DNA from: a virus
DNA length: 30,750 bases
Direction: 5' to 3' (one strand)
Virus record (IMG/VR): IMGVR_UViG_3300042470_000360
Coordinates: 1 to 30,750 of that record
The notes below the pieces were generated by a model. That model saw nothing but the letters and a program-made list of their open reading frames with translations, was not told the origin of the DNA and ran no database searches. The translations under genes and the position numbers were made by a program. Numbering within the stretch: position 1 is the stretch's first letter; each line of letters starts with the position of its first letter. Below are positions 12,046 to 24,361 of this stretch, one piece after another.

Positions 12046-12245
12046 ATCCCAAACAATTTCTTGACAAACATGGCCGCGACACCTGGTCCAAGCAAGACCG
12101 CGGCAATCGTGATGTACAACAAGATCTCAATATGCCGCATGCGTGTGCTGCCATCTTTTAGTCGCTTTTCAATTTGTTCGTAACGCTGCGCACAAACTGC
12201 CTCGTGGACTGAAAACTTGGTTTCGATGTTTTGTTCCATGGTCAT
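12042..12245 (-). CDS. Small membrane protein with N-terminal coiled coil (XhlA-like layout)
   Basis: A 67-residue protein with a charged helical N-terminus (about 1-38, QRYEQIEKRLKDGSTRMRHI) and one C-terminal membrane segment (about 39-60, LLYITIAAVLLGPGVAAMFV). This is the layout of hemolysin XhlA-like phage lysis helpers, which act with a holin. The similarity is one of architecture and not proven homology. It overlaps the oxygenase gene before it and the membrane-protein gene after it by 4 bases each. Confidence 0.68.
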   Translation of the reverse strand: MTMEQNIETKFSVHEAVCAQRYEQIEKRLKDGSTRMRHIEILLYITIAAVLLGPGVAAMFVKKLFGI

Positions 12246-12868
12246 AAAGCATTCAAGAAAATTAACTGTGTCAGCCGACTGTTAGTCACATCGGTACCGA
12301 AGTGATCTCCCATCGAATGCCACATCCAGGGCCGAAACAAAACCAAGCGATTGGTCCGAATCGGGGCGTCAAAAACAGGCTCCCATAAGTTTTTGTTCTT
12401 GCCTTCAGTCTCAAAGAACTTGACCATGTCATCGTGCGTCGTAACACCGATGGCTTGTGCTTCGATATGGTCCCGTGGCGCTACTTCCATGCCTGACTTG
12501 CGGTGGCGATACATGGATGTGCCAGCCTGCTTGCCAGCATAATGCTCGGGCAGGCTTAGGTAAATAACCCCAGCCCAAACCTGCTGAGGCTTGGGATCAA
12601 AGTGAATGACTTGGGTTGAAGTGTCATGCTCGCAGGTAAAGCGAAAGTGGCCACAGCTTGAGGTAGGCGTTGGGAACACAATATCGCCTGTAATCGCTGA
12701 GAGCATGTTGTTAAGGTCCAATGACCAAAACGCCTGCGTGCTGTTGCACCCAGGGTAATTACGCTCTCCTGGCGCTTCATACTCAGCCTGCAGCGCAATC
12801 TGACGAATGTCTGCAAAGTTGGGGAAGAAGTCATCCACCACGATGATGCGCTTATCAAAGTTCACCAC
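12242..12868 (-). CDS. 2-oxoglutarate/Fe(II) oxygenase-like protein (DUF6445-like)
   Basis: A 208-residue protein with the iron-binding pattern of 2-oxoglutarate oxygenases: His89-x-Asp91 (IHFDPKPQ), a distal His184 in LFRPWMWHSMG, and Arg198 (SRLTQLIFLN) as the likely 2-oxoglutarate anchor. The flanking strands (WAGVIYLSLPEHY and RLVLFRP) fit the double-stranded beta-helix core. I associate the overall pattern with DUF6445. Such enzymes hydroxylate proteins, sugars or small molecules. It follows the GT32 gene with a 7-base overlap and ends the modification cassette, so a surface polymer or fibre is the most likely substrate. The assignment of the distal His (184 rather than 189) is a judgement. 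Confidence 0.7.
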   Translation of the reverse strand: MVNFDKRIIVVDDFFPNFADIRQIALQAEYEAPGERNYPGCNSTQAFWSLDLNNMLSAITGDIVFPTPTSSCGHFRFTCEHDTSTQVIHFDPKPQQVWAGVIYLSLPEHYAGKQAGTSMYRHRKSGMEVAPRDHIEAQAIGVTTHDDMVKFFETEGKNKNLWEPVFDAPIRTNRLVLFRPWMWHSMGDHFGTDVTNSRLTQLIFLNAL

Positions 12869-13563
12869 TCACCTGTCCAGTGACGCAAACCGTTTTGAGC
12901 GTAAAAGTCTCGCTTCATTTGCTCCCAGTTGCCTGCAAAGCCCTCGTGAATGACGGTCCGATGTGGTGGCACTTCCATGATGCATTTCAGACCTTGCACT
13001 TGGTTCACAGCACCGCGCATTTGCTGCATCACTTCTTCGCCTGGATTGGTATCGATGATGCCGCCAAAAAGCGTCTCTGTGATGGCGTGCATGTAAGTCT
13101 GCGCGCCCAGGAAGTAAATGCTGTCAGCGCCAAGCTTGCGACGGCCAAGCCAGTGCCTGATAGCAGATCGGTAGATCGGATTATGCGGCGCACTCAACAT
13201 GAAGTCATGCGAGAAGTCATGGTTGCGGCAAGTCGGCAAAACTTGCCGAGTGTCATCGTCAATTAGTTTTGACAGGGGCATGTTGCAAAGCCTGTCAATA
13301 TCAATGTAAAGGCCACCCTCTAAGAACATTTTGTAAAGACGCCAGATATCGGTCTTGGCCACAATGTGCAAGGGCTGAGCAAGCTCATAGTCCTCAGCCA
13401 TTTTCTCTTGCAGGTAGGCCTCGATGTCAGCATCGTCAGAGATCTGCAAGTCCCAATCAGGGTTGAGTTCAACAAGCTTTTTAAGGCCATGCTTGATGAG
13501 AGGCGCGTCACTCTTGAGCACCTCCTTGTCATTCCAGGCTATGTGAATGATTTTAGGGATCAT
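12862..13563 (-). CDS. Glycosyltransferase family 32-like (sugar-binding DXD type)
   Basis: A 233-residue protein starting with MIPKIIHIAW, the N-terminal signature of the GT32 / Gly_transf_sug group (OCH1-like and capsular transferases). The conserved block AKTDIWRLYKMFLEGGLYID (about 69-88) leads into the DXD metal and sugar-nucleotide motif Asp88-Ile-Asp90. The C-terminal part carries a His/Asn-rich acceptor region. No membrane segment is seen, so it should be cytoplasmic. Start and stop overlap its neighbours by 4 and 7 bases. Sugar donor and acceptor are unknown. Confidence 0.82.
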   Translation of the reverse strand: MIPKIIHIAWNDKEVLKSDAPLIKHGLKKLVELNPDWDLQISDDADIEAYLQEKMAEDYELAQPLHIVAKTDIWRLYKMFLEGGLYIDIDRLCNMPLSKLIDDDTRQVLPTCRNHDFSHDFMLSAPHNPIYRSAIRHWLGRRKLGADSIYFLGAQTYMHAITETLFGGIIDTNPGEEVMQQMRGAVNQVQGLKCIMEVPPHRTVIHEGFAGNWEQMKRDFYAQNGLRHWTGEW

Positions 13564-14402
13564 TTGAGACCCATTTTCTCGCGGATCTTGGTGGCTGAGA
13601 TGGAGTGCGTCGCATCGTCAAACACTTCCTGCTCAATCTTGTAGCCCACATCACGGCCATAGGTGATGTTTACAACATTGGGCACTAGCTGAATCTCATA
13701 TTGGCCCTGATACAGAGGATCAAGATCGCGCCTAATGAAGTCCTTGACCTGCTCGGCAGCAAAGGGATTGGACCCGTTCCAGCCCTGGCAATCGCGGATT
13801 TGAATGACTACCTGACCTGTCTTGGCAATCGCACGCTCAAAGAGTTTGCGATGGCCAGGATGCCAAGGTTGCCAGCGTCCAAGCATTTGAACGGTCTCTT
13901 TCTTCCAGTCAAAGCGTGGTCTGCGACGGTCATTTAAGATGTGGTCAGCGATGAAGTCAGACCACTTATCAGCGTCTTTCTCGGTAATACGAAAGTCATA
14001 GAGATCAGGTGATACGAAAGCTTTGTTTGTATCTTCATAGCGGCCCTGATCGATGGTGTCCATCCAGATCACCCAGTCAGCCTTGAAGTTGTGACGCATC
14101 TCAGGCAGCGGTGCCACAAAGTCACAGATCACATAGTCAGCATTGGCAGTCATGGCAAACTCAGCCATGCGTAAGGACTGGCGAATGCGCCCTTCATGGC
14201 TAAAGTCCCAGTCGTTATACTTCTTGCGGACCTCATCAGCATTGAACCATTTCACGCTGGGTCGATAAAAGGTGGGCACCACCTCACACTGCGCCAATGT
14301 TTCGACGGGGATCTCAGTGCTGGCCTCCAGACGCTTCTTCAAAGCCTCAGCCATAAAGGTCTTGCCTGCTCCTGGCAGGCCCATGATCAAGATTTTTTTC
14401 AT
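13560..14402 (-). CDS. APS-kinase-like P-loop kinase fused to HxGH nucleotidyltransferase
   Basis: A 280-residue two-domain protein. Domain 1 (about 1-160) has a Walker A motif GLPGAGKT (8-15) and the block FNADEVRKKYNDWDFSHEGR (53-72), which parallels the DGDNVRxGLxxDLGFSxxDR block of adenylylsulfate kinases. Domain 2 (about 170-280) is a cytidylyltransferase-like fold with GRWQPWHPGH (175-184) and ISATKIR (268-274). Similar kinase-nucleotidyltransferase fusions are known from marine phages, often named adenylylsulfate kinase. If domain 1 makes PAPS it would supply the sulfotransferase encoded at 15521-17296. The second domain resembles NMN or sugar-phosphate adenylyl/cytidylyltransferases more than ATP sulfurylase, so a NAD or sugar-nucleotide role is an alternative. 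Confidence 0.8.
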   Translation of the reverse strand: MKKILIMGLPGAGKTFMAEALKKRLEASTEIPVETLAQCEVVPTFYRPSVKWFNADEVRKKYNDWDFSHEGRIRQSLRMAEFAMTANADYVICDFVAPLPEMRHNFKADWVIWMDTIDQGRYEDTNKAFVSPDLYDFRITEKDADKWSDFIADHILNDRRRPRFDWKKETVQMLGRWQPWHPGHRKLFERAIAKTGQVVIQIRDCQGWNGSNPFAAEQVKDFIRRDLDPLYQGQYEIQLVPNVVNITYGRDVGYKIEQEVFDDATHSISATKIREKMGLK

Positions 14403-15094
14403 GCGGCTAACTTATCGTTGCGGTCAGTTGTTCGGCCATGCTTGGGGCGTCCAAGGATGGTTGTCTCAGTCTTATCAGGTGCGTCTGTAGCGTACACGCC
14501 CATTTGATGAATCGGGAAAATATCAGCACGAATCAGAATATCTAAAGGCACAGCAATACCGTACTTAATCACATGCGAGAGCAGGTTTTTAGCTACCGCA
14601 GGGTCAATTGCGTAGGCATGAGCACGGCAAATGAAATGATAATTAGGGCCTTCAGACGCGTGTGGTGGCGTAGGCATCACAGCCCATCCCTTTTGCGTTT
14701 GCTCATGGCACCCAAGATAGCAAATTGAGTTGTAAACCGCATGCTGGCGATAAGGCTGAACCATTACCGCATCATGCTCAAGAATGACAAGGGGTTTGTC
14801 ATCTTCAATGCATTTGGCCCACAGGCTTATATGTGAGAGCGCACAGGCCACTTCACCGCGTGTGAGGTAGTGGTCAGTCACCTTGATCAAGTTCATCACC
14901 TGACTGTGGTGAGCAGGTGGCTGGATGGGGTCTTCTAAGCCGTTATAGGCATCCCAAAACTGATAGGGCATACCAATCGAGGCGCAGGACTTAGCAGCTT
15001 CGTTAGCCTTGCGCTCAGATACCTCATGCCCTGGGATGCGGATAATGTAAGCCCGCTCCACAGCCATGTCATAGCTGTAGAAGAGCGACTTCAT
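14399..15094 (-). CDS. Glycosyltransferase family 25-like
   Basis: A 231-residue protein matching the GT25 layout (LPS galactosyltransferases of LgtB/LpsA type; collagen galactosyltransferases in animals). It has an N-terminal strand with AYIIRIPGHEVSERKA, then the hallmark GEVACALSHISLWAKCIEDD (80-99) followed by PLVILEHDAVM (101-111). The usual EDD metal motif reads Glu106-His-Asp108 here. The C-terminus has the Ala-His-Ala-Tyr region seen in the family. There is no membrane segment. It is coupled by ATGA overlaps to the chaperone-like gene before and the kinase fusion after. Confidence 0.8.
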   Translation of the reverse strand: MKSLFYSYDMAVERAYIIRIPGHEVSERKANEAAKSCASIGMPYQFWDAYNGLEDPIQPPAHHSQVMNLIKVTDHYLTRGEVACALSHISLWAKCIEDDKPLVILEHDAVMVQPYRQHAVYNSICYLGCHEQTQKGWAVMPTPPHASEGPNYHFICRAHAYAIDPAVAKNLLSHVIKYGIAVPLDILIRADIFPIHQMGVYATDAPDKTETTILGRPKHGRTTDRNDKLAA

Positions 15095-15546
15095 GTGGGC
15101 TTAACAGGCCAATCTAAACCGTTGAAATCAACGATGGTAGGCAAATCACGCAAGGCTTGACGGTAGGTTGCCCATGCCTCGGGAATAGCCTGACCTGCTT
15201 CCAGGTACTTGATAATGACCCAATCAGTTTCGGCAAGCCTGAAGTTGCGCTCAATGCGCCACAAGCGCCAACGCTCTGCTGCCTCGGCATCAAGCTCTTC
15301 TTGCGTCTTGGATCGCTTAACGAGCGTCCAGACTACATGATCGTCCTTGATCTCGTAGCTTTCAGAATCCCACACCTCAGTGCGCGTATCCATCGAATCA
15401 GGCTTCACTGAAACAACGGGATACCAACCCGAGCGAATCAGCGCATCTTTATCAGCACCCCAGGCTGAGACATCAGGTGGCAGTAAATTAGCACCACGCA
15501 CTACCTTCCCGTCTTCAACCTTAACCCATAGATCTAATCCTGCCAT
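15091..15546 (-). CDS. Tail/fibre assembly chaperone-like protein (Phage_tail_APC type)
   Basis: About 151 residues from the ATG at 15546, which has GGGG six bases upstream; an ATG at 15558 lacks such a site. The C-terminal half (about 90-148) contains WRIERNFRLAETDWVI and AWATYRQALRDLPTI ending in LDWPVKP. This is the conserved block of phage tail assembly chaperone-like proteins (PF16778 group), often encoded just after fibre genes. The N-terminal half is a small strand-rich domain of unknown role. Here it is two genes after the RCC1 fibre and inside the modification cassette, so a fibre-folding chaperone is the likeliest job. The start overlaps the upstream gene by 26 bases. Confidence 0.78.
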   Translation of the reverse strand: MAGLDLWVKVEDGKVVRGANLLPPDVSAWGADKDALIRSGWYPVVSVKPDSMDTRTEVWDSESYEIKDDHVVWTLVKRSKTQEELDAEAAERWRLWRIERNFRLAETDWVIIKYLEAGQAIPEAWATYRQALRDLPTIVDFNGLDWPVKPT

Positions 15547-17296
15547 GATGTACCCCATTCAAGTAATCGCTAAGTTCACTGCGAATCATTTCAAAAACAT
15601 CATCCCAAGTATCGTATTTGCTCTGCCTGAACAATCGAACAGCATCGTACCAAGGAACGCTACTTCCAGGTAAGGCCCACAAGTAATAAGGCAGGATTGG
15701 GATAGCAACCCAAGTCGGTATGCCCATCGCAGCCGATAGGTGAGCCACTGAGGTACATGATGAGATGACTAAGTCACAGCCTGCCACCGCAAGTTGCGTA
15801 TCTTGCCATGAGTCAAGCTTGGACTCAGCAATCCATTCAGGTCGATGCTGTGCGCCTTCATCACGCTGCAAGGACACAAACTCAACATCAAAGCCTTTAA
15901 CAGCGTTAAAGAGCAACTCAGGTGGGAAATACTTGCGATGATCGTGCTCGAAGTTGGGATTACCCTGCCAACGCAAACCGATACGGAATTTGTCCTTTGT
16001 GACTTGTGGGCAGGGGATATAAGCGCGACCCCACACATCCTTGTACTCAATACCTAAAGGTATTGGCGCTGACATTCCAGGCACCCAAGCATGGTGATAA
16101 ACGCCTGGGGCCGCTTCGTGAACGGCTACCGCACGCACATTGGGAACCGTTGCAAAGAGCGTTACAAGCTCGGGCGAGCAAGCCACAATCACTTGGCAGT
16201 TGCGAGCCGTAATGTCTTGCACAAAGCGCATCTGGTGAATTTGATCGCCTAAGCCACCTTCTAAGTAAAGCAAGACGGTTTGATGAGGTTGACCCTGCCA
16301 AAGCTCTGTGGGCACTTGAGGCTTGCGATTGCCGAAGACCTGCTCAATCCTACCCCTGGCAAGTAACTGCATACCTTCTTGCAGCTTGCCTTGCATCAGC
16401 ACATACAAGCCTCGGTTATAGGCTGCACGGTGGTTTTCAGGCTCAACGCGCTCAAGGTGCTGGGCAATCTCCCAAGCTTTTTGGAAGTCACCGCGACGGC
16501 CTGCTTCCAATTGCAAATCGAGGGGCTGTTTGGGTCTTGACTCTTCCGTTTCACCAAGCCAAAAGCGTGGTTGGTTAAACTCGTGATAACGGTGCCCCAA
16601 GACCTCTTGGGCTGTTTGCTTGTGCTGACGCTCAAGCTTAGGCTTGATGTCGTGCAAACCAGGGATGCCCCAAACCTCATCATCTTTCTCAGCTACTACT
16701 GAACCTTCAATGCGCTCAAAGTCATAGGTAAAAGGCTCAAGCTCCAAGAACTGATGAATGCGATCAAGCTGTGTTTTGGGGTCAGCAAGCAGGTCTTCGT
16801 ACTCAATCAAGCAAAAGGACAGGGGATCTTCCAACATGCCTGCGTGCAGCGTCACATAGCCTGTTTTGACCACATCAATGAGGTGTGTCTCGGCCAAAAA
16901 CTTTTGCACATTGTCTGGTTTAACAACACGCACAAAGGATGCAATGCAGTCAGGCACGCTGCGAACCGTTGCAATGATCTTGGGCTTTTGACCTAAGACT
17001 TTCGTCATGGTCTTCATGATCGGTGGCGCAGGCCAGCCACGGTTTTTGTCGATGATGACAGGCTTGGTAATGGTCTCGTTTTTGGCTTGCATCAACCCGC
17101 GCAACATGCGAATCATGTCATCGTCATTGCGACCTTGGACATGAATGGACTCATCACGCTCCCACTTCTCAGCCACAGCGCCCATGATGCTAATTAGCCC
17201 TGATGTTGGTGTGACATGCACCAGGGGGTTTTGATTCAGGATCGCGGCAAGAACCGTGGATCCAGAGCGTGGTAAGCCAGATAAGAAGTGCATCAT
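15521..17296 (-). CDS. Sulfotransferase-TPR-glycosyltransferase fusion
   Basis: A 591-residue three-part protein. Residues about 1-240 form a PAPS-dependent sulfotransferase domain with the 5'-phosphosulfate loop SGLPRSGSTVLA (6-17) and the 3'-phosphate site around Arg112 and Ser120 (ATVRSVPDCIASFVRV). Residues about 260-325 look like two TPR-type helical repeats (EAGRRGDFQKAWEIAQHLER then NRGLYVLMQGKLQEGMQLL). Residues about 335-580 resemble a GT-B transferase of the GT9/GT41 type, with LEGGLGDQIHQMRFVQ and the late nucleotide-sugar motif ISSCTSVAHLSAAMGIPTWV. The fusion suggests that sugar transfer and sulfation act on one acceptor. The start is MM at 17296/17293, overlapping the RCC1 gene stop. 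Confidence 0.82.
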   Translation of the reverse strand: MMHFLSGLPRSGSTVLAAILNQNPLVHVTPTSGLISIMGAVAEKWERDESIHVQGRNDDDMIRMLRGLMQAKNETITKPVIIDKNRGWPAPPIMKTMTKVLGQKPKIIATVRSVPDCIASFVRVVKPDNVQKFLAETHLIDVVKTGYVTLHAGMLEDPLSFCLIEYEDLLADPKTQLDRIHQFLELEPFTYDFERIEGSVVAEKDDEVWGIPGLHDIKPKLERQHKQTAQEVLGHRYHEFNQPRFWLGETEESRPKQPLDLQLEAGRRGDFQKAWEIAQHLERVEPENHRAAYNRGLYVLMQGKLQEGMQLLARGRIEQVFGNRKPQVPTELWQGQPHQTVLLYLEGGLGDQIHQMRFVQDITARNCQVIVACSPELVTLFATVPNVRAVAVHEAAPGVYHHAWVPGMSAPIPLGIEYKDVWGRAYIPCPQVTKDKFRIGLRWQGNPNFEHDHRKYFPPELLFNAVKGFDVEFVSLQRDEGAQHRPEWIAESKLDSWQDTQLAVAGCDLVISSCTSVAHLSAAMGIPTWVAIPILPYYLWALPGSSVPWYDAVRLFRQSKYDTWDDVFEMIRSELSDYLNGVHHGRIRSMG

Positions 17297-19035
17297 GCAG
17301 GACTGATTGATGTTTGAGTAATACCAAATGTAGCATTACCGGAACCGGCTGATATAAACCCCCAATTTGTTAATGCCCCAACCTGAACTGGCGATGATCT
17401 AGGTGTTGTGTTGCCTTGCCCAAGTTGACCATCGCTATTTCTACCCCATGACCATAGCGTGCCGTCCGTCTTTATTACAGAAGAAGTTCCGAATCCTGCC
17501 GACGCTTTATCCCAGGTTGTTAATGCACCAACTTGTACAGGAGAGGATCTTGGATATGTGTGGTTAAGCCCTAAATTTCCATATTGGTTACGACCCCAGG
17601 CATACAATTCTCCGGTTGTAAGAATTCCGAGCATGTGACAGTTAGAATAATTACCGGAAGCAACATTTATGCTTTTCCAAGTCGTTAATGCACCAAGCTG
17701 TACAGGTGAAGACATGCTAGTTGTAGAATTAATACCCAATTCCCCCCAAAGATTATGGCCCCAAACCCAAGCCGTGCCATCAGTTTTTATAGCTGCTGCT
17801 CGATAAACGCCCATGTTTATTTTTGACCATGTAGTTAATGCACCTATTTGAGTCGGAGATGATCTGGCAAAACTGCCAAAAGGATTATCATTTTGGCCTA
17901 AAACACCTTGGTAGTTCAGCCCCCAAGACCACATGGTCCCATTAGTTTTACGAGCCAGAAATGCTTGACCACCGCCAGAAATTTCTGCCCAATCGGTCAG
18001 TGTTCCGACTTGAACTGGCGATGATAAAGTTAATAAACTATTATGCCCCAAGGAACCATTGGTATTATTACCCCAAGTAAATAATTGTCCTGATACTGTC
18101 AGTGCTGCGCAAGAGGAATTATTTGTTGTCGCGCTAGCCCAAGTAGTAAGCGATCCAATTTGTACAGGGGAGGATCGGGAAATAATATTATTTTGACCTA
18201 GTTGACCTTGAGCATTATAACCCCAAGACCACATTGTTCCATCTGTTTTTATAGCCACAGCTTGGGCTTGGCCTGATACACTTGCCCAATTCAATAATGC
18301 CCCAACTTGTGTAGGAGAAGATATGGAGGCCGCACTATTTTGACCAAGTTTGCCAGCAACTCCATTTCCCCAAGAATAAAGTTGACCTTGCGTTCCCCCC
18401 GGAATCGTAGCTTCCACCCAGCCACGCCATTTCGTACCACCATCCGTTGTAAGCAATGCAATAACAGTAATGCCGTTTGCGCCGGTAGCTAAGGTCGGTG
18501 CCGTTTGTACGGTGCTGATCGTCGCAGCAGCATACTGCCCGCTCCAATACACTGAATTAGGCCAAACAATCGTATAGGCCGTACCGTCCGAGGCATTCTT
18601 CACTACGATCTGAATCAAAATCGGCGTGCCACTTGCAGGCACATTGGTAAACGAAAGTGTCGTGATGTTTGCTGCCATCGTTAAGTCGATGACATTGCCA
18701 CTGTTTAGGTTGATCGTGGTTGTAGCTGATGATGTAACGGCTTGACGGGTATTGTTGGTCAGGGCACCTGCTGCTACCGAGCCAAAGCTTAAAACACCTG
18801 CGCCATTGGTTGTCAAAAATTGCCCACTCGTGCCATCAGCCGTAGGGTACTTAAGCTCGGCAGGATTGTTGAAAAAGCGCTTGACGACACCCGATGCATT
18901 CTCGAAATACATCGTCATGTCGGTATCAGCAATGTTCAGCGCCAATTCGCCAGGACTAAGATTGGCAGCAAGGGGTAGGTTGCCCGAAGTCGTGCTGCGA
19001 TAAAGCTGGATGGGCGTGTAATTGGTTGCAGGCAT
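17293..19035 (-). CDS. Tail-fibre-type protein with seven RCC1 repeats (beta-propeller)
   Basis: A 580-residue protein preceded by a strong GGAGGT site six bases from the ATG. The N-terminal segment (about 1-85; LSPGELALNIADTDMTMYFENA) is the attachment region common in phage fibres, followed by a beta-rich linker domain to about 210. From about 218 to the end there are seven consecutive RCC1-like repeats, each with WGxNxxGxLGxN and SSPxQ[VIL]G. Seven is the number needed for a closed propeller. The repeat region looks clearly AT-richer than its neighbours: sample 60-base lines I counted by hand gave about 38-48% G+C. The domain therefore probably arrived by transfer. RCC1 propellers bind proteins or sugars, so a receptor-binding head is the likely role. 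Confidence 0.85.
   Translation of the reverse strand: MPATNYTPIQLYRSTTSGNLPLAANLSPGELALNIADTDMTMYFENASGVVKRFFNNPAELKYPTADGTSGQFLTTNGAGVLSFGSVAAGALTNNTRQAVTSSATTTINLNSGNVIDLTMAANITTLSFTNVPASGTPILIQIVVKNASDGTAYTIVWPNSVYWSGQYAAATISTVQTAPTLATGANGITVIALLTTDGGTKWRGWVEATIPGGTQGQLYSWGNGVAGKLGQNSAASISSPTQVGALLNWASVSGQAQAVAIKTDGTMWSWGYNAQGQLGQNNIISRSSPVQIGSLTTWASATTNNSSCAALTVSGQLFTWGNNTNGSLGHNSLLTLSSPVQVGTLTDWAEISGGGQAFLARKTNGTMWSWGLNYQGVLGQNDNPFGSFARSSPTQIGALTTWSKINMGVYRAAAIKTDGTAWVWGHNLWGELGINSTTSMSSPVQLGALTTWKSINVASGNYSNCHMLGILTTGELYAWGRNQYGNLGLNHTYPRSSPVQVGALTTWDKASAGFGTSSVIKTDGTLWSWGRNSDGQLGQGNTTPRSSPVQVGALTNWGFISAGSGNATFGITQTSISPA
17310..18390 (-). repeat. Seven tandem RCC1-type coding repeats
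   Basis: Seven units of about 48-55 codons each, marked by Trp-Gly...Leu-Gly and Ser-Ser-Pro-x-Gln motifs. DNA identity between units is partial, highest around the codons for SSPVQVGALTTW, where several units share nearly the same bases. That pattern suggests duplication followed by drift and leaves room for recombination between units. Confidence 0.8.
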
Positions 19036-19069: not shown

Positions 19070-19528
19070 TTAGGCTGCGCGTTCAAGGTACAAAAGGCTT
19101 TTCACAGCCCTTAAAACGATCTCTGGCGCGACAAACTTGCTGGGGTCATGCTCATAGCAGTCCCACCACAAAAACTGGTTGGGCACGAGATTAGCGCGGT
19201 CCTTGAGCAGGTTGATGTTCTCAGGGTGGCCAAAGATGTTGGGGTCCGATACTGACCACAGCACAATCCCAGGCTTGCCCAAATCCCACCCAAAGTGCTG
19301 CAAGAAGCTATCGCATGAAATCCAGGTATCGCACTCGCGGATGAGGTTGCACAAAGCATTGAGCGGCAGGTTCTTGCGAAAGTCATCAACCAACCGCGGC
19401 TCACCCTCCACTCCCACCTGTACCACAGGCTTGGGCAGCATCGGGATAAGCTCCTCCCAAAACGGGTAATCCTTGGGATTCTTCTTCCCGTTGGATAGCT
19501 TTTTGGCAAAGGGTGCGATCACAATCAT
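19070..19528 (-). CDS. C-terminal half of a GT9-like glycosyltransferase, encoded separately
   Basis: A 152-residue protein that resembles only the C-terminal Rossmann domain of GT9 (heptosyltransferase-type) enzymes: MIVIAPFAKKLSNGKKNPKD, a strand pattern VVQVGVEGE, and the late block WISCDSFLQHFGWDLGKPG followed by VLWSVSDPNIFG. Full GT9 proteins are about 300-350 residues with an N-terminal Rossmann domain. The matching N-terminal half appears as the tail of the gene just upstream (19525-20493), whose stop overlaps this ATG (ATGA). The two products may assemble into one GT-B enzyme. Alternatively this is a stand-alone fragment with binding but no catalytic role. Confidence 0.78.
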   Translation of the reverse strand: MIVIAPFAKKLSNGKKNPKDYPFWEELIPMLPKPVVQVGVEGEPRLVDDFRKNLPLNALCNLIRECDTWISCDSFLQHFGWDLGKPGIVLWSVSDPNIFGHPENINLLKDRANLVPNQFLWWDCYEHDPSKFVAPEIVLRAVKSLLYLERAA

Positions 19529-20493
19529 AAGTACAACTTTCGGTAAGCTGACTCAAGGCTTGACTTCCACTTCCAACGGTCCATTTTCGCATAAATGTTA
19601 TACATTTCGATGTCGCCAAATAAGTCTTTGGCCTCAGCGATGGACCTGCACGGGATGATCTCAGGATAGCAGCCAAACACCACAGGGTTCTTAATGGATG
19701 GCAGCACATGCTTGAAGACCACATGATCGCCCATGCCGTTGTTAAGCACCACAATCGTTGCATCTCTGAATGCCATCGTGTTGCGGAAGATCTGCTCGTC
19801 ATGCGCAAACAACTGATCGTTGTTATCCATGCGGATACCACCTGATGGCGCTTTCAGGTGCCAGGTCACTGCATTGGGTACAACCAGCAGTTTGTAGCCT
19901 TTAAGCTTCAAACCCCAACTGAATAGCGTCTCTTCGCGGTGTGCCACGCGGGACAGGCCTAGGTTGTAGTCATAAATCCCAGCACGGTACAAGAAGGTGC
20001 AGTGAAGATGATCCACCTCTCTGACCTTGTGAATGGTCTGCCACTGTGGATTTGGCTCATGATCAATGTAGTCAATCTTGCCTGTAGGCTTGGCCGTCTC
20101 AAAGTCATGGCCTGGCATAAAGACTGAGCCACCAATGCCTGCCACATCAGGCGCAATGTGCTTAGCTAATTGCTCGAGTACGCCAGGCTCAGGAAGGGCA
20201 TCATCATCCACGCGCCACACCCAGTCATAGCCCATGCAATTGGCCATTTGATGATTGTGATGCTGGCCCTTTTTGCCTGCCCAGAGCCATTCCCAAGCAA
20301 TGCCTTTGCGCTCAAGCATGAAGAAATACTTGCTGTACATCGGGTCCTGGCGCAGGTCTAAATGCTCGTCGTTATCATCAAAGATCACAAGCTTGTCAGG
20401 CTTGCGTGTCTGATTCATCACGGCCTGCAAGGCCATCGGCAAGAAGGTATGCGTGCGGCCTCGTGTCGAGATTGAGCACAGAATGCTAGGCAT
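19525..20493 (-). CDS. GT2-like glycosyltransferase with C-terminal GT9 N-half
   Basis: A 322-residue protein. Residues about 1-235 form a GT-A family 2-like transferase: SILCSISTRGRTHTFLPMAL at the start, Asp96-98 (WRVDDDALPEPGV) as metal motif, and an HREETLFSW acceptor region. Residues about 244-322 switch to a GT9-like N-terminal start (ATIVVLNNGMGDHVVFKHVL), including the Gly-x-Gly-Asp loop, and end before any GT9 C-terminal domain. That missing part is encoded by the next gene. The gene overlaps the GT2-methyltransferase gene by 8 bases. Donor and acceptor sugars are unknown. Confidence 0.8.
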   Translation of the reverse strand: MPSILCSISTRGRTHTFLPMALQAVMNQTRKPDKLVIFDDNDEHLDLRQDPMYSKYFFMLERKGIAWEWLWAGKKGQHHNHQMANCMGYDWVWRVDDDALPEPGVLEQLAKHIAPDVAGIGGSVFMPGHDFETAKPTGKIDYIDHEPNPQWQTIHKVREVDHLHCTFLYRAGIYDYNLGLSRVAHREETLFSWGLKLKGYKLLVVPNAVTWHLKAPSGGIRMDNNDQLFAHDEQIFRNTMAFRDATIVVLNNGMGDHVVFKHVLPSIKNPVVFGCYPEIIPCRSIAEAKDLFGDIEMYNIYAKMDRWKWKSSLESAYRKLYL

Positions 20494-21766
20494 GCCAGCG
20501 CCCGATCAGCAGGTTTAACCGATTCTTATCGTCAATGGCTTTAGGCGCTGTTGAGATGGCGCCTTCCTCATCGATGTACTCAAAATGAAAGCCAGGAAAG
20601 TGCGATTCATTCAGGCCATGCAACTTGTGATGCGGACCCCAAAAACCTGGTGGCTCATTCATCGGCACCGTAAACAGCAGGGTCTTGCAATGCTGCTTTA
20701 GCTTTTGCAGGATTTCAAGGCCATTGTCTAAGTGCTCGATAACCTCAAAAGCAATGATCGTGTCGTACTGATCAAAAGGGTAAGTATTGATGTCAGCATG
20801 ATGGAACTGGCAGTGAGGTGTCCATTGCTGCTCGTTGGCCACATCCACAATGATTGGATCGTAATCAAGGCCAATGTAAGGCTTGTCAGGCATGAACTGA
20901 GAGCCGTAACCACTCGAGCAACCAATCTCTAAAATGTTGCGGCCTGCATGGCTTGCAGCCCATTGATACCGAGTTGACTCTCTCGGGAAAACTGGATCGC
21001 CTTTCAAGAAGACTGCGCGCTCCCAGTAATTCGATAAACGCCAGCGATACCACTCACGGTTATACATCTTGGCAAGCTTGAGTGAGTTGCGCAAAAAGAT
21101 GTCGTGATAGTTATCAACCAGCTTGGGATCGAGCATCGTGCCCTCACCCTTGTGATAAATCGGAAAGACGCCTGTGTACTGTGAGCCATCCCACTGCTTT
21201 GGCGAGCATTCAGTCACCTCGTAGCCTGCCTCTTCAGCGCGAATGCAAAACTCGGTATCCTCGCCACCGCCCACGCCAAAGTCCATGCTGAGCAAGCCAA
21301 TCTGGCTGAATACGCGCCTGCGAATCATCACGCAAAAGAAGACTACAAAGTCACGGCCTGCAGGCTCTGACGGTCCTTTGATAACCCCTGATATGCCACA
21401 CTGAGGATTGACGAAGGGATGGTCCAGCATGTGCAGCCACTGGCTCTTTTCCTGGGGCAGCAGGACCGTGTCATTGTTAAGCAGGACAATCTTGTCAGTG
21501 CGCGTAGCTACGATGCCAGCATTGCAAGCGCCTGAATAACCCAAGGGCTTGTCATTCCAAACAACTTTGATGTGCTTCTCAAAGCCGATGCTGGTAAAGC
21601 GCTGCGTTAGCTCTTTCAGGTAGACATCGGTATTGTCCGTACAACCATTGGCCGAAATGACCAATTCCACATCGGCCATGTCGGTGTACTTGAAGACAGA
21701 CTCTAAGCAGGGCTTTAGTAGGTCATCACAATGGTTGTAGGTCGGTATGACAATTGAATACTTCAT
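20486..21766 (-). CDS. GT2 glycosyltransferase-SAM methyltransferase fusion
   Basis: A 426-residue protein. The N-terminal domain (about 1-235) is a family 2 transferase: MKYSIVIPTYNHCDDLLKPC, the nucleotide-sugar motif LLNNDTVLLP (95-104), and GGGEDTEFCIRA (167-178) with the catalytic-base-type ED. The C-terminal domain (about 275-400) is a class I methyltransferase with NILEIGCSSGYG (277-288), an acidic strand end IGLDYDP (298-304) and VIEHLDNGLEIL (342-353). It could add a sugar and methylate it, or cap a chain by methylation. It directly follows the collagen-like fibre gene with a 1-base overlap, which suggests co-expression with that fibre. Confidence 0.85.
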   Translation of the reverse strand: MKYSIVIPTYNHCDDLLKPCLESVFKYTDMADVELVISANGCTDNTDVYLKELTQRFTSIGFEKHIKVVWNDKPLGYSGACNAGIVATRTDKIVLLNNDTVLLPQEKSQWLHMLDHPFVNPQCGISGVIKGPSEPAGRDFVVFFCVMIRRRVFSQIGLLSMDFGVGGGEDTEFCIRAEEAGYEVTECSPKQWDGSQYTGVFPIYHKGEGTMLDPKLVDNYHDIFLRNSLKLAKMYNREWYRWRLSNYWERAVFLKGDPVFPRESTRYQWAASHAGRNILEIGCSSGYGSQFMPDKPYIGLDYDPIIVDVANEQQWTPHCQFHHADINTYPFDQYDTIIAFEVIEHLDNGLEILQKLKQHCKTLLFTVPMNEPPGFWGPHHKLHGLNESHFPGFHFEYIDEEGAISTAPKAIDDKNRLNLLIGRWHA

Positions 21767-23505: not shown

Positions 23506-23846
23506 TAGGGTGACACCGCTATTCCATCGAGGTTCCCATTGTTCTCAGGCGTCTGGGTATTGCCTTCCGTCGAGACAATGACATTTTGTTGATCCGTTGT
23601 CACCAGATTATCCTGGATTGCAGCCACTGACACATCAGGTCTCGGAAAGCGCAAGTTGATGCGCTCAGTTTGCCGTGCCGGTAACCGATAAGGATCTTTC
23701 TCATCCCTGCAATTTTCCTCGCACACCATCAGCCCTGGAAAGTTGATGTCAGGCCCCAAGGTGGCGTGAGGACGCTTCATGCGACACCGATCGCAAATAC
23801 CGATCGCGATGTCGGAATAACCCTCAGTGTCAAGAAACATCGGCAT
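23505..23846 (-). CDS. Zinc-ribbon-like small protein
   Basis: A 113-residue protein with two CxxC-type pairs: Cys18-x-x-Cys21 (ICDRCRMKR) and Cys42-x3-Cys46 (VCEENCRDEKDPYRLP), a pattern expected to hold one zinc ion. The rest is Pro/Gln/Asn-rich and probably disordered. I recall similar short CDRC...CRDEKDPYRLP proteins among structural genes of aquatic phages, with no assigned function. It overlaps both neighbours by a single base (TAATG). A virion assembly or nucleic-acid-binding role is possible. Confidence 0.72.
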   Translation of the reverse strand: MPMFLDTEGYSDIAIGICDRCRMKRPHATLGPDINFPGLMVCEENCRDEKDPYRLPARQTERINLRFPRPDVSVAAIQDNLVTTDQQNVIVSTEGNTQTPENNGNLDGIAVSP

Positions 23847-24361
23847 TATTTTGTCCTACCCTGAGATTCTAGAGTAGCGCGGCGCGACGCAACTCGCTTC
23901 GCAATTTGCTCGGCAGTCTGCTTGCGACCCTTGCCTGCTTTACCACCCAGACTTCCAAAGTTATCAGGCATCTTTTTTGATCTTCCAACCAGCCAAGGCG
24001 TTGGGCGCGAAACACCCTTAAGCGGACTTACATAGTCATACCCACGACTTTTTGATATTGGCGGCTTTTTGCCGCCAGGGGCGATATTCCAGCCCATCGT
24101 ATCTGTACAACGAATTCTTGATTCAAGCTCATAGCAATAATCTTCTGAGCCAATTACCAATACCTCTTTTAACAAGTTTTCCCATCCATATTTGGCTATA
24201 GCATTGGCAAGCCTAGGATTCTCATGTCGATCATTCTTTTGCGCCCAATAGTGGCCATACTTCCATCTATGTTTAGCGTTTTTTGAAACGCCAATATAAC
24301 CTTCGCTCATAAAATCTGAGTGATGACTTGCCCTTATCCAATACAAAGTGCAGGCGCTCAT
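23846..24361 (-). CDS. GIY-YIG homing endonuclease
   Basis: A 171-residue protein with a variant GIY-YIG nuclease core: YWI (7-9), GYIGVS (21-26), Arg32 as catalytic arginine, Glu80 in YELESRI, and the terminal WNIAPGG (91-97). The C-terminal part ends with KQTAEQIAKRVASRRATL, a NUMOD-like helical DNA-binding motif. Such enzymes cut phage DNA at a specific site and spread their own gene. The gene is AT-richer than its neighbours: the line at 24121-24180 has about 32% G+C by hand count, against roughly half elsewhere. Yet its ATG overlaps the adaptor stop by 4 bases and its stop overlaps the next start. This is a clean, in-operon insertion with no intron visible. Confidence 0.85.
   Translation of the reverse strand: MSACTLYWIRASHHSDFMSEGYIGVSKNAKHRWKYGHYWAQKNDRHENPRLANAIAKYGWENLLKEVLVIGSEDYCYELESRIRCTDTMGWNIAPGGKKPPISKSRGYDYVSPLKGVSRPTPWLVGRSKKMPDNFGSLGGKAGKGRKQTAEQIAKRVASRRATLESQGRTK

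Follow-up and report, generated by a model that had tools for sequence, protein, structure and literature searches.

Phages are known to add sugars, and the question raised by the locus described here is whether a phage might also sulfate such sugars with a sulfate-activating enzyme of its own. The locus lies in a stretch of viral DNA of 30,750 nucleotides (positions 1 to 30,750 of IMG/VR virus record IMGVR_UViG_3300042470_000360; hereafter, the window), the minus strand of which carries a gene for a 280-residue protein (13560..14402; family alignments A2 and A4) and, three genes upstream of it, a gene for a 591-residue protein (15521..17296), with a GT25-family glycosyltransferase gene and a gene for a tail-fibre assembly chaperone between them. 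An original prediction, made from the letters of the DNA, held the two products to be an adenosine 5′-phosphosulfate (APS) kinase and a sulfotransferase fused to a glycosyltransferase and to form one phage-encoded sulfation system. We found that the first protein does contain an APS-kinase-like domain and that its other half, which the prediction had missed, is a nucleotidyltransferase domain (NT). The fusion is probably a compact synthetase of 3′-phosphoadenosine 5′-phosphosulfate (PAPS), in which NT makes APS and the kinase converts it to PAPS, feeding the sulfotransferase-glycosyltransferase protein, so that the phage would encode a sulfation module. To reach this reading, we computed domain identities and folds, conserved motifs, the linkage of kinase and sulfotransferase genes, and the link between NT and APS enzymes in SAR11-family genomes.

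The kinase half (residues 1-160; 13923..14402) has the motifs that had first drawn attention to it, NADEVR at residues 54-59 and NDWDFS at residues 63-68, together with the P-loop GLPGAGKT and an FVAP sequence, and the protein passes the cut-off of Pfam APS_kinase (PF01583; 29.1 bits against 21.1; E value, 1.2e-6). With a profile built from 52 relatives, the top 16 PDB matches (the best 60 of 257 were considered) were APS kinases or PAPS synthetases, with E values down to 1e-15, and the 17th, a nicotinamide mononucleotide (NMN) adenylyltransferase (NMNAT), matched via NT and not via the kinase domain. The first 30 structural matches of the predicted model (predicted local distance difference test score [pLDDT], 89.6) were APS kinases, PAPS synthetases, and the kinase-like end of fungal ATP sulfurylase, at Z scores of 16.0 to 19.0, most of them aligning at 1.7 to 2.8 Å over 128 to 143 residues. 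Thus, APS kinases came ahead of other kinases by both profile and fold: gluconate kinase was next in the structural list (Z 15.2, within 1 unit of the lowest APS-kinase-type entry), T4 polynucleotide kinase stood at ranks 40 and 41 of the Foldseek list for the model, and nicotinamide-riboside kinase, which the prediction had named as a possible better match, was absent among the sequence-profile and fold matches listed for the kinase domain. Across 50 aligned sequences, the invariant kinase positions were G8, G13, and K14 of the P-loop, D56, R59, F67, R72, R78, F95, and P98. We take the APS-binding residues to be the Arg of DNVR, the Phe of GFS, the next Arg, and an Asn; R59, F67, and R72 occupy such putative positions, and the alignments give Q75 of the window protein at the Asn position. 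The fold and the P-loop, D-x-x-R, F-S, R, and F-x-x-P positions are all common to CysC (apsK) and the phage kinase. Separately, a degenerate second copy of the kinase domain with a decayed P-loop (e.g., GLPESSKNS) was seen just upstream of the intact kinase-NT gene in locus L022 (2299-3249) and similarly in L027, L028, L046, and L058; a Pfam scan of the 316-residue open reading frame of L022 that ends in this copy gave no match. Some phage contigs (L172-L177) have kinase-domain genes without NT.

The 591-residue protein begins with a sulfotransferase domain (residues 1-255; 16532..17296) in which the PAPS loop, PRSGST, spans residues 9-14. It passes the cut-offs of Sulfotransfer_3 (PF13469; 53.2 bits against 27) and Sulfotransfer_1 (PF00685; 38.2 against 22), and the corresponding part of the model matches tyrosylprotein sulfotransferases (Z 18-19; root mean square deviation [rmsd], ~3.5 Å over ~235 residues). 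P9, R10, and G12 of the loop were invariant across 25 aligned sulfotransferase sequences, as were R112 and S120, presumably the Arg/Ser pair that binds the 3′-phosphate. A C-terminal GT-B domain had also been foreseen, and the fold bears it out: residues 339-584 (15545..16282) match the heptosyltransferases WaaC, WaaF, and TibC and a GT9 protein at Z 15.3 to 16.0 over 230 to 245 residues, and Pfam Glyco_transf_9 was not among the matches of the protein at an E value of 0.1. The TPR-like middle (residues 258-317; 16346..16525) fared less well, being helical in the model and matching PF13432 below the cut-off (E value, 7e-4). The model has a mean pLDDT of 84 and a predicted template modelling score of 0.55, a value at which it is not a dependable guide to how the domains sit relative to one another. 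As read from sequence and model, the protein is a PAPS-type sulfotransferase joined through TPR-like helices to a heptosyltransferase-like GT-B domain, with predicted transfer activity. It has the fold, the PRSGST loop, and the conserved Arg and Ser in common with tyrosylprotein and carbohydrate sulfotransferases (Sulfotransfer_3) and differs from them in its fusion to TPR-like helices and a GT9-like domain and in being phage-borne.

Do the two genes travel together? We compared two groups of kinase loci, window-like and DLP6-like, using a sulfotransferase profile derived from the very loci that had been fetched and scoring a sulfotransferase as near when it lay on the kinase strand no more than 5 kb upstream. 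Of 80 window-like loci fetched, 32 lacked 5 kb of upstream flank and were left out; a sulfotransferase was near the kinase in 41 of the remaining 48, so the co-occurrence in related phages that the prediction called for is there. A Pfam scan of 50 kinase-bearing records detected Sulfotransfer_3 in 20 (19 over the cut-off), comprising 17 of 23 window-like and 3 of 26 DLP6-like ones. The sulfotransferase domain ended no more than 41 nt from the kinase start in nine window-like loci, and the types of sulfotransferase near kinases varied, from sulfotransferase-glycosyltransferase fusions of ~570 to 650 residues to single sulfotransferases of ~260 to 330 residues. In L127, a Glyco_transf_7C domain (24.4 bits; cut-off, 23) is joined to a Sulfotransfer_4 domain (E value, 1e-36) that ends on the kinase start, and in Stenotrophomonas phage Bhz60, in which the Pfam scan found no Sulfotransfer_3, a Sulfotransfer_4 gene (26.2 bits; cut-off, 22.8) lies two genes upstream of the kinase. 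Mapped onto an 80-kinase tree, in which 38 rows had a sulfotransferase within 5 kb, the label required 14 changes, at least 7 of them forced by supported branches; shuffled labels required 27 changes on average, and none of 500 shuffles was as low as 14. Thus, sulfotransferase and kinase have been joined repeatedly, though the label is also inherited within clades.

As a control, we anchored searches on genes chosen regardless of kinase or sulfotransferase, namely, the gene following the kinase in L022 and that of L213, both of which we take to encode T4-like neck proteins. In 62 such loci with 8 kb upstream, 5 had both genes, none had the kinase only or the sulfotransferase only, and 57 had neither; all five double positives came from the first anchor, and four were near-identical phages (98 to 100% neck identity), leaving about two independent cases. 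With 4 kb upstream (n = 92), the corresponding counts were 6, 2, 0, and 84. Counted anywhere in the loci, the first anchor gave 7 with both, 3 with the kinase only, 0 with the sulfotransferase only, and 70 with neither (n = 80), and the L213 anchor was uninformative (1 with the kinase only and 79 with neither; n = 80). When the GT25 gene served as the anchor, the 56 of 80 loci of at least 9 kb comprised 29 with both, 2 with the kinase only, 16 with the sulfotransferase only, and 9 with neither (one-sided P = 0.007).

Other counts weigh against the reading of the two genes as a module. Removal of the loci closest to the window changed the GT25 table to 16, 2, 16, and 9 (P = 0.07); the 16 of 56 loci above had a sulfotransferase and no kinase; none of the 44 loci anchored on the sulfotransferase of cyanophage S-SKS1, of which 36 spanned at least 9 kb, had a kinase; and among 40 DLP6-like kinase loci, the sulfotransferase profile placed a sulfotransferase within 5 kb upstream in only 4. 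Four further DLP6-like loci (L132, L134, L148, and L163) have one 0.5 to 0.7 kb downstream of the kinase. In 11 DLP6-like loci (L102, L103, L105-L110, L112, L113, and L115; ~4.0 to 6.0 kb), a tandem pair of proteins with an N-terminal PRTGS, PRSGST, or NRSGST precedes the kinase; these were not counted as sulfotransferases because two had no Pfam sulfotransferase match, their profile found no solved sulfotransferase, and the sulfotransferase profile aligned over 15 columns only, and they are possibly a diverged sulfotransferase family. We therefore rejected strict pairing, since sulfotransferases occur alone and many DLP6-like kinase loci lack one by profile. In window-like phages, the kinase predicts a sulfotransferase and a sulfotransferase does not predict the kinase. 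Such a one-way link is consistent with a source of PAPS on which certain phages depend and which others can forgo, and the S-SKS1 result implies that phage sulfotransferases can use another source of PAPS. Structure and genomic company thus support the idea of one sulfation system, with the qualification that the link runs in one direction.

The half of the 280-residue protein that had been overlooked (residues ~166-280; 13563..13907) is an HxGH nucleotidyltransferase with the motifs GRWQPWHPGH, YGRDVGY, and ISATKIR, resembling NMNATs (PDB profile E value, 3e-10). In the 50 sequences, its invariant positions were G175, R176, Q178, P179, H181, G183, H184, R203, P213, N242, G249, R250, V252, G253, Y254, I268, A270, T271, and R274; its fold was compared within the whole 280-residue model, where kinase matches filled the structural list. 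It has the GRxQPxHxGH motif and the S-x-T-x-IR region in common with archaeal-type NadM, from which it differs in being shorter and in its genomic company, and the fusion falls well below the NadM equivalog cut-off (TIGR01527; 26.3 bits against 181.2). A kinase joined to an NMNAT-like domain also recalls NadR, and the fusion might accordingly serve NAD salvage as a ribosylnicotinamide kinase and NMN adenylyltransferase, perhaps rebuilding NAD against host defence; in phage Bhz60, a NADAR-domain gene (L001:9559-10002) separates the Sulfotransfer_4 gene from the kinase-NT gene and stands immediately upstream of the latter. NadR has its domains in the opposite order, NMNAT and then kinase. The phage kinase is instead of the APS-kinase type, the NadR entries 8x7f and 1lw7 match via the NT domain only, and NAD salvage would leave the sulfotransferase and, as described below, aprBA neighbours unexplained. 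With an APS-kinase-like half and neighbours that are APS and PAPS enzymes, we rejected NAD salvage as the principal explanation and regard it as very improbable.

For a PAPS synthetase, by comparison, there are precedents of the same general design: animal PAPSS1/2 and bacterial Sat-CysC fusions likewise join an APS kinase domain to a domain of the nucleotidyltransferase superfamily. In human PAPSS1, the kinase comes first, as in the phage fusion; its structure (1x6v) aligns over residues 1-280 of the model at an rmsd of 21 Å and so is comparable domain by domain only. The phage NT differs from the partner domains of these enzymes in being ~115 residues long and NMNAT-like, with no detected homology to the ATP sulfurylase Sat. 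Homology to Sat via the GRD motif of NT had been expected and was dropped: there was no Pfam match to Sat (PF01747), hhalign, run against no more than 3 Sat sequences, gave a probability of 2.5%, and the D of the motif is G in the SAR11 rows shown. As a consequence, the sequence argument fell away, and our reading of NT rests on genomic context.

That context comes largely from bacteria, in which we confirmed at least 542 stretches of the kinase-NT family; the family is not phage specific, occurring in SAR11, Bradyrhizobium, and SAR116 genomes. The titles of the best 80 stretches were mostly Pelagibacteraceae, with Bradyrhizobium, SAR116, SAR86, and others. In Bradyrhizobium locus L199, two TPR-sulfotransferase genes (Sulfotransfer_3 E values, 2e-40 and 2e-44) directly precede the kinase, the nearer ending ~55 nt ahead of the kinase's first conserved residue. 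These proteins and that of SAR116 locus L183 resemble the phage protein in combining TPR and Sulfotransfer_3 in one chain beside a kinase-NT gene and differ in that TPR precedes the sulfotransferase and that no glycosyltransferase domain was among the Pfam matches listed. Kinase and NT can be separate proteins: they are two overlapping open reading frames in a gammaproteobacterium (L221, 7998-8790) and an alphaproteobacterium (L240, 7977-8796) and separate genes in many SAR11-family genomes, where they are mostly neighbours and lie 4.5 to 6.4 kb apart in L277, L278, and L279.

We examined 50 bacterial genomes picked for holding kinase-NT (completeness not given; 38 titled Pelagibacter, Pelagibacteraceae, or Pelagibacterales), in which Sulfotransfer_3 was found in 38 (37 over the cut-off), canonical apsK in 5, Sat over the cut-off in 3, and CysD over the cut-off in 3 (any match in 6). 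In a profile search, 42 of the 50 had neither a Sat nor a CysD match, so that the kinase would have no other known source of APS there. This counts against the alternative that the kinase alone acts on APS, drawn from the host, while NT does another job, such as NMN adenylylation or nucleotide-sugar synthesis; it is also at odds with the finding, described next, that NT tracks two different APS enzymes. The alternative draws on the closest solved relatives of NT being NMNATs and on NT not being recognisable as Sat, and we consider it rather unlikely.

The proposal that NT itself acts on APS was examined in a sample of 100 draft SAR11-family genomes (minimum completeness, 70), with kinase and NT called at E values below 1e-20. 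NT was present in 49 of these genomes, the kinase in 35 (including some truncated at contig ends), aprA over the cut-off in 42 (two more partial matches were not counted), Sulfotransfer_3 in 39 (37 over the cut-off), CysD over the cut-off in 7, and Sat in 5. AprA and NT occurred together in 37 genomes, aprA only in 5, NT only in 12, and neither in 46; sulfotransferase and kinase occurred together in 27, sulfotransferase only in 12, kinase only in 8, and neither in 53. When aprA and the kinase were pooled, NT accompanied one or the other in 45 genomes, occurred without them in 4, was missing beside them in 6, and was absent along with both in 45. Sixteen genomes contained NT and lacked the kinase; aprA was present in 12 of these and a sulfotransferase in 2. 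The distance from NT to aprA is 1.4 to 1.9 kb in 11 of the 12 and 376 kb in the twelfth (G193). It is 2.2 to 4.0 kb in 6 genomes that have the kinase as well as NT and aprA.

Twenty SAR11-family stretches were inspected gene by gene, 13 of them with NT and no kinase, and in 10 of the 13 the order was NT, a membrane protein, an AprB-like ferredoxin, and AprA. Here, the NMNAT-like protein is ~126 to 130 residues long and adjoins AprB/AprA along with a CADD-family protein (L264-L271, L274, and L282). In L264, the E values were 1e-299 for AprA and 7e-56 for AprB, the membrane protein is weakly TcuB/QmoC-like, the CADD-family protein is ahead of NT, and a TauE sulfite-exporter-family gene (3e-20) follows. 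Of the other three stretches, L272 has NT beside a similar exporter, judged by eye, with aprBA not in view, L283 is of poor quality, and L273 lies elsewhere. APS is a product or substrate of AprBA and a substrate of APS kinase. Because NT is the gene common to the AprBA setting and the kinase setting, we read NT as an enzyme that acts on APS.

Published gene inventories bear on this setting. According to the accessible part of PMC5069961, "Candidatus Pelagibacter ubique" has AprBA, for which a role in sulfite detoxification is cited, without cysDNCHIJ and sat; a table in the same part nevertheless shows cysQ for each of seven strains and cysC for several of them, and those cysC entries are perhaps kinases of the kinase-NT family. 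A sulfotransferase gene is listed in a strain of this organism in the portion of PMC2217521 available to us, and aprABM occurs with sat in some SAR116 genera in that of PMC8547437.

On balance, we lean towards regarding the ~115-residue NT as a third ATP sulfurylase family, unrelated to Sat and CysDN and derived from NMN adenylyltransferase, which would carry out the last step of sulfite oxidation in SAR11 beside aprBA (APS and pyrophosphate to ATP and sulfate) and which, with a small APS kinase, would form a minimal PAPS synthetase taken up by phages for glycan sulfation. Several observations weigh against this assignment and that of the fusion as a PAPS synthetase. The fusion fails the apsK equivalog TIGR00455, at 21.2 bits against a cut-off of 138.7. 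NT is closest to NMNAT in sequence and far shorter than Sat, and its GRD motif reads GRG in the SAR11 rows shown. NT is missing from 5 of the 42 aprA genomes; 8 of 35 kinase-bearing SAR11-family genomes lack Sulfotransfer_3, and 12 of 39 Sulfotransfer_3 genomes lack the kinase. In 20 of the 37 genomes with both, NT and aprA are not near each other, being ~39 kb or more apart on the same contig in 9 (including G193) and on separate contigs in 11. The Fisher P value for NT and aprA-or-kinase, 4e-17, ignores common descent, comes from draft genomes, and is descriptive only.

A further alternative is that the fusion makes some other 3′-phosphorylated or nucleoside diphosphate-activated compound for glycan decoration and that the sulfotransferase uses host PAPS. 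The CDP-phosphoramidate kinase of Campylobacter, which is APS-kinase-like, exemplifies such a route; the kinase gene sits among glycosyltransferase genes, and the sulfotransferases without kinase show that other sources of PAPS suffice in some phages. Neither the adjacency of NT and aprBA nor the kinase loci with adjacent sulfotransferases of several kinds would be explained, and we judge this alternative quite improbable.

If the fusion is a compact PAPS synthetase, NT would join sulfate to AMP from ATP, giving APS, as ATP sulfurylase does, and the N-terminal domain would add the 3′-phosphate to give PAPS. The formation of APS is unfavourable, and the kinase step would pull it. With PAPS as donor, the sulfotransferase domain of the 591-residue protein would then sulfate a glycan that its GT9-like partner domain and the neighbouring glycosyltransferases had built. 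The two reactions assigned to the fusion, the identity of the acceptor, and what the sulfation is for are inferences; the sulfated sugar would be the one transferred, with the acceptor most likely on the tail fibres or on the host surface, which our data do not tell apart. The tail fibre is a candidate site because an RCC1 protein and the fibre chaperone adjoin the sulfotransferase-glycosyltransferase gene.

The surrounding minus-strand genes form a run, mostly overlapping, in the order RCC1 fibre-like protein, sulfotransferase-glycosyltransferase, tail-fibre chaperone, GT25, kinase, DXD glycosyltransferase, and DUF6445. The RCC1-repeat protein, directly upstream of the sulfotransferase-glycosyltransferase (17293..19035), has seven stretches matching PF00415 and a match to phrog_9017 (tail fibre) and is possibly the receptor-binding part. 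The chaperone (15091..15558) matches PF16778 (E value, 6e-14) and phrog_4912; the GT25 gene (14399..15094; PF01755, 5e-19) overlaps the kinase start; the DXD sugar glycosyltransferase (12862..13563; PF04488, 6e-7) lies directly past the kinase; and the DUF6445 protein (12242..12868; PF20043, 1e-14) is weakly 2-oxoglutarate-oxygenase-like (PF13759, 0.004, below the cut-off). Upstream, also on the minus strand, profiles matched more glycosyltransferase genes, a GT9-like fragment, a GT2, and a GT2-methyltransferase (19070..21766); downstream of the module are endolysin and holin-like genes. A homing-endonuclease-like gene (phrog_314) is present at 23846-24361, near a tail-fibre-like gene.

Among the titles and abstract openings of open-licence literature, we found no description of a phage PAPS synthetase-sulfotransferase pair or of a new ATP sulfurylase family, a weak negative; one phage paper with PAPS terms, PMC10434257, concerns, in its accessible part, a PAPS reductase gene. 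If true, a self-contained phage route of sulfate activation, sulfotransferase, and glycosyltransferase would mean that virions or host surfaces receive a new kind of chemical decoration. The implications for SAR11 are of a different kind. "Candidatus Pelagibacter ubique" has APS reductase and, as far as the accessible part of PMC5069961 goes, no recognised ATP sulfurylase, which has left it unsettled what becomes of its APS. An NT that interconverts ATP and sulfate with APS and pyrophosphate would fill this gap, and the ~126-residue protein adjoining the SAR11 APS reductase genes may be the missing ATP sulfurylase, for the purification of which the phage fusion offers a convenient form. If so, SAR11, a clade abundant in the ocean, would gain conservation of ATP from sulfite in its metabolism, and the annotation of its genomes as lacking sat would be explained.

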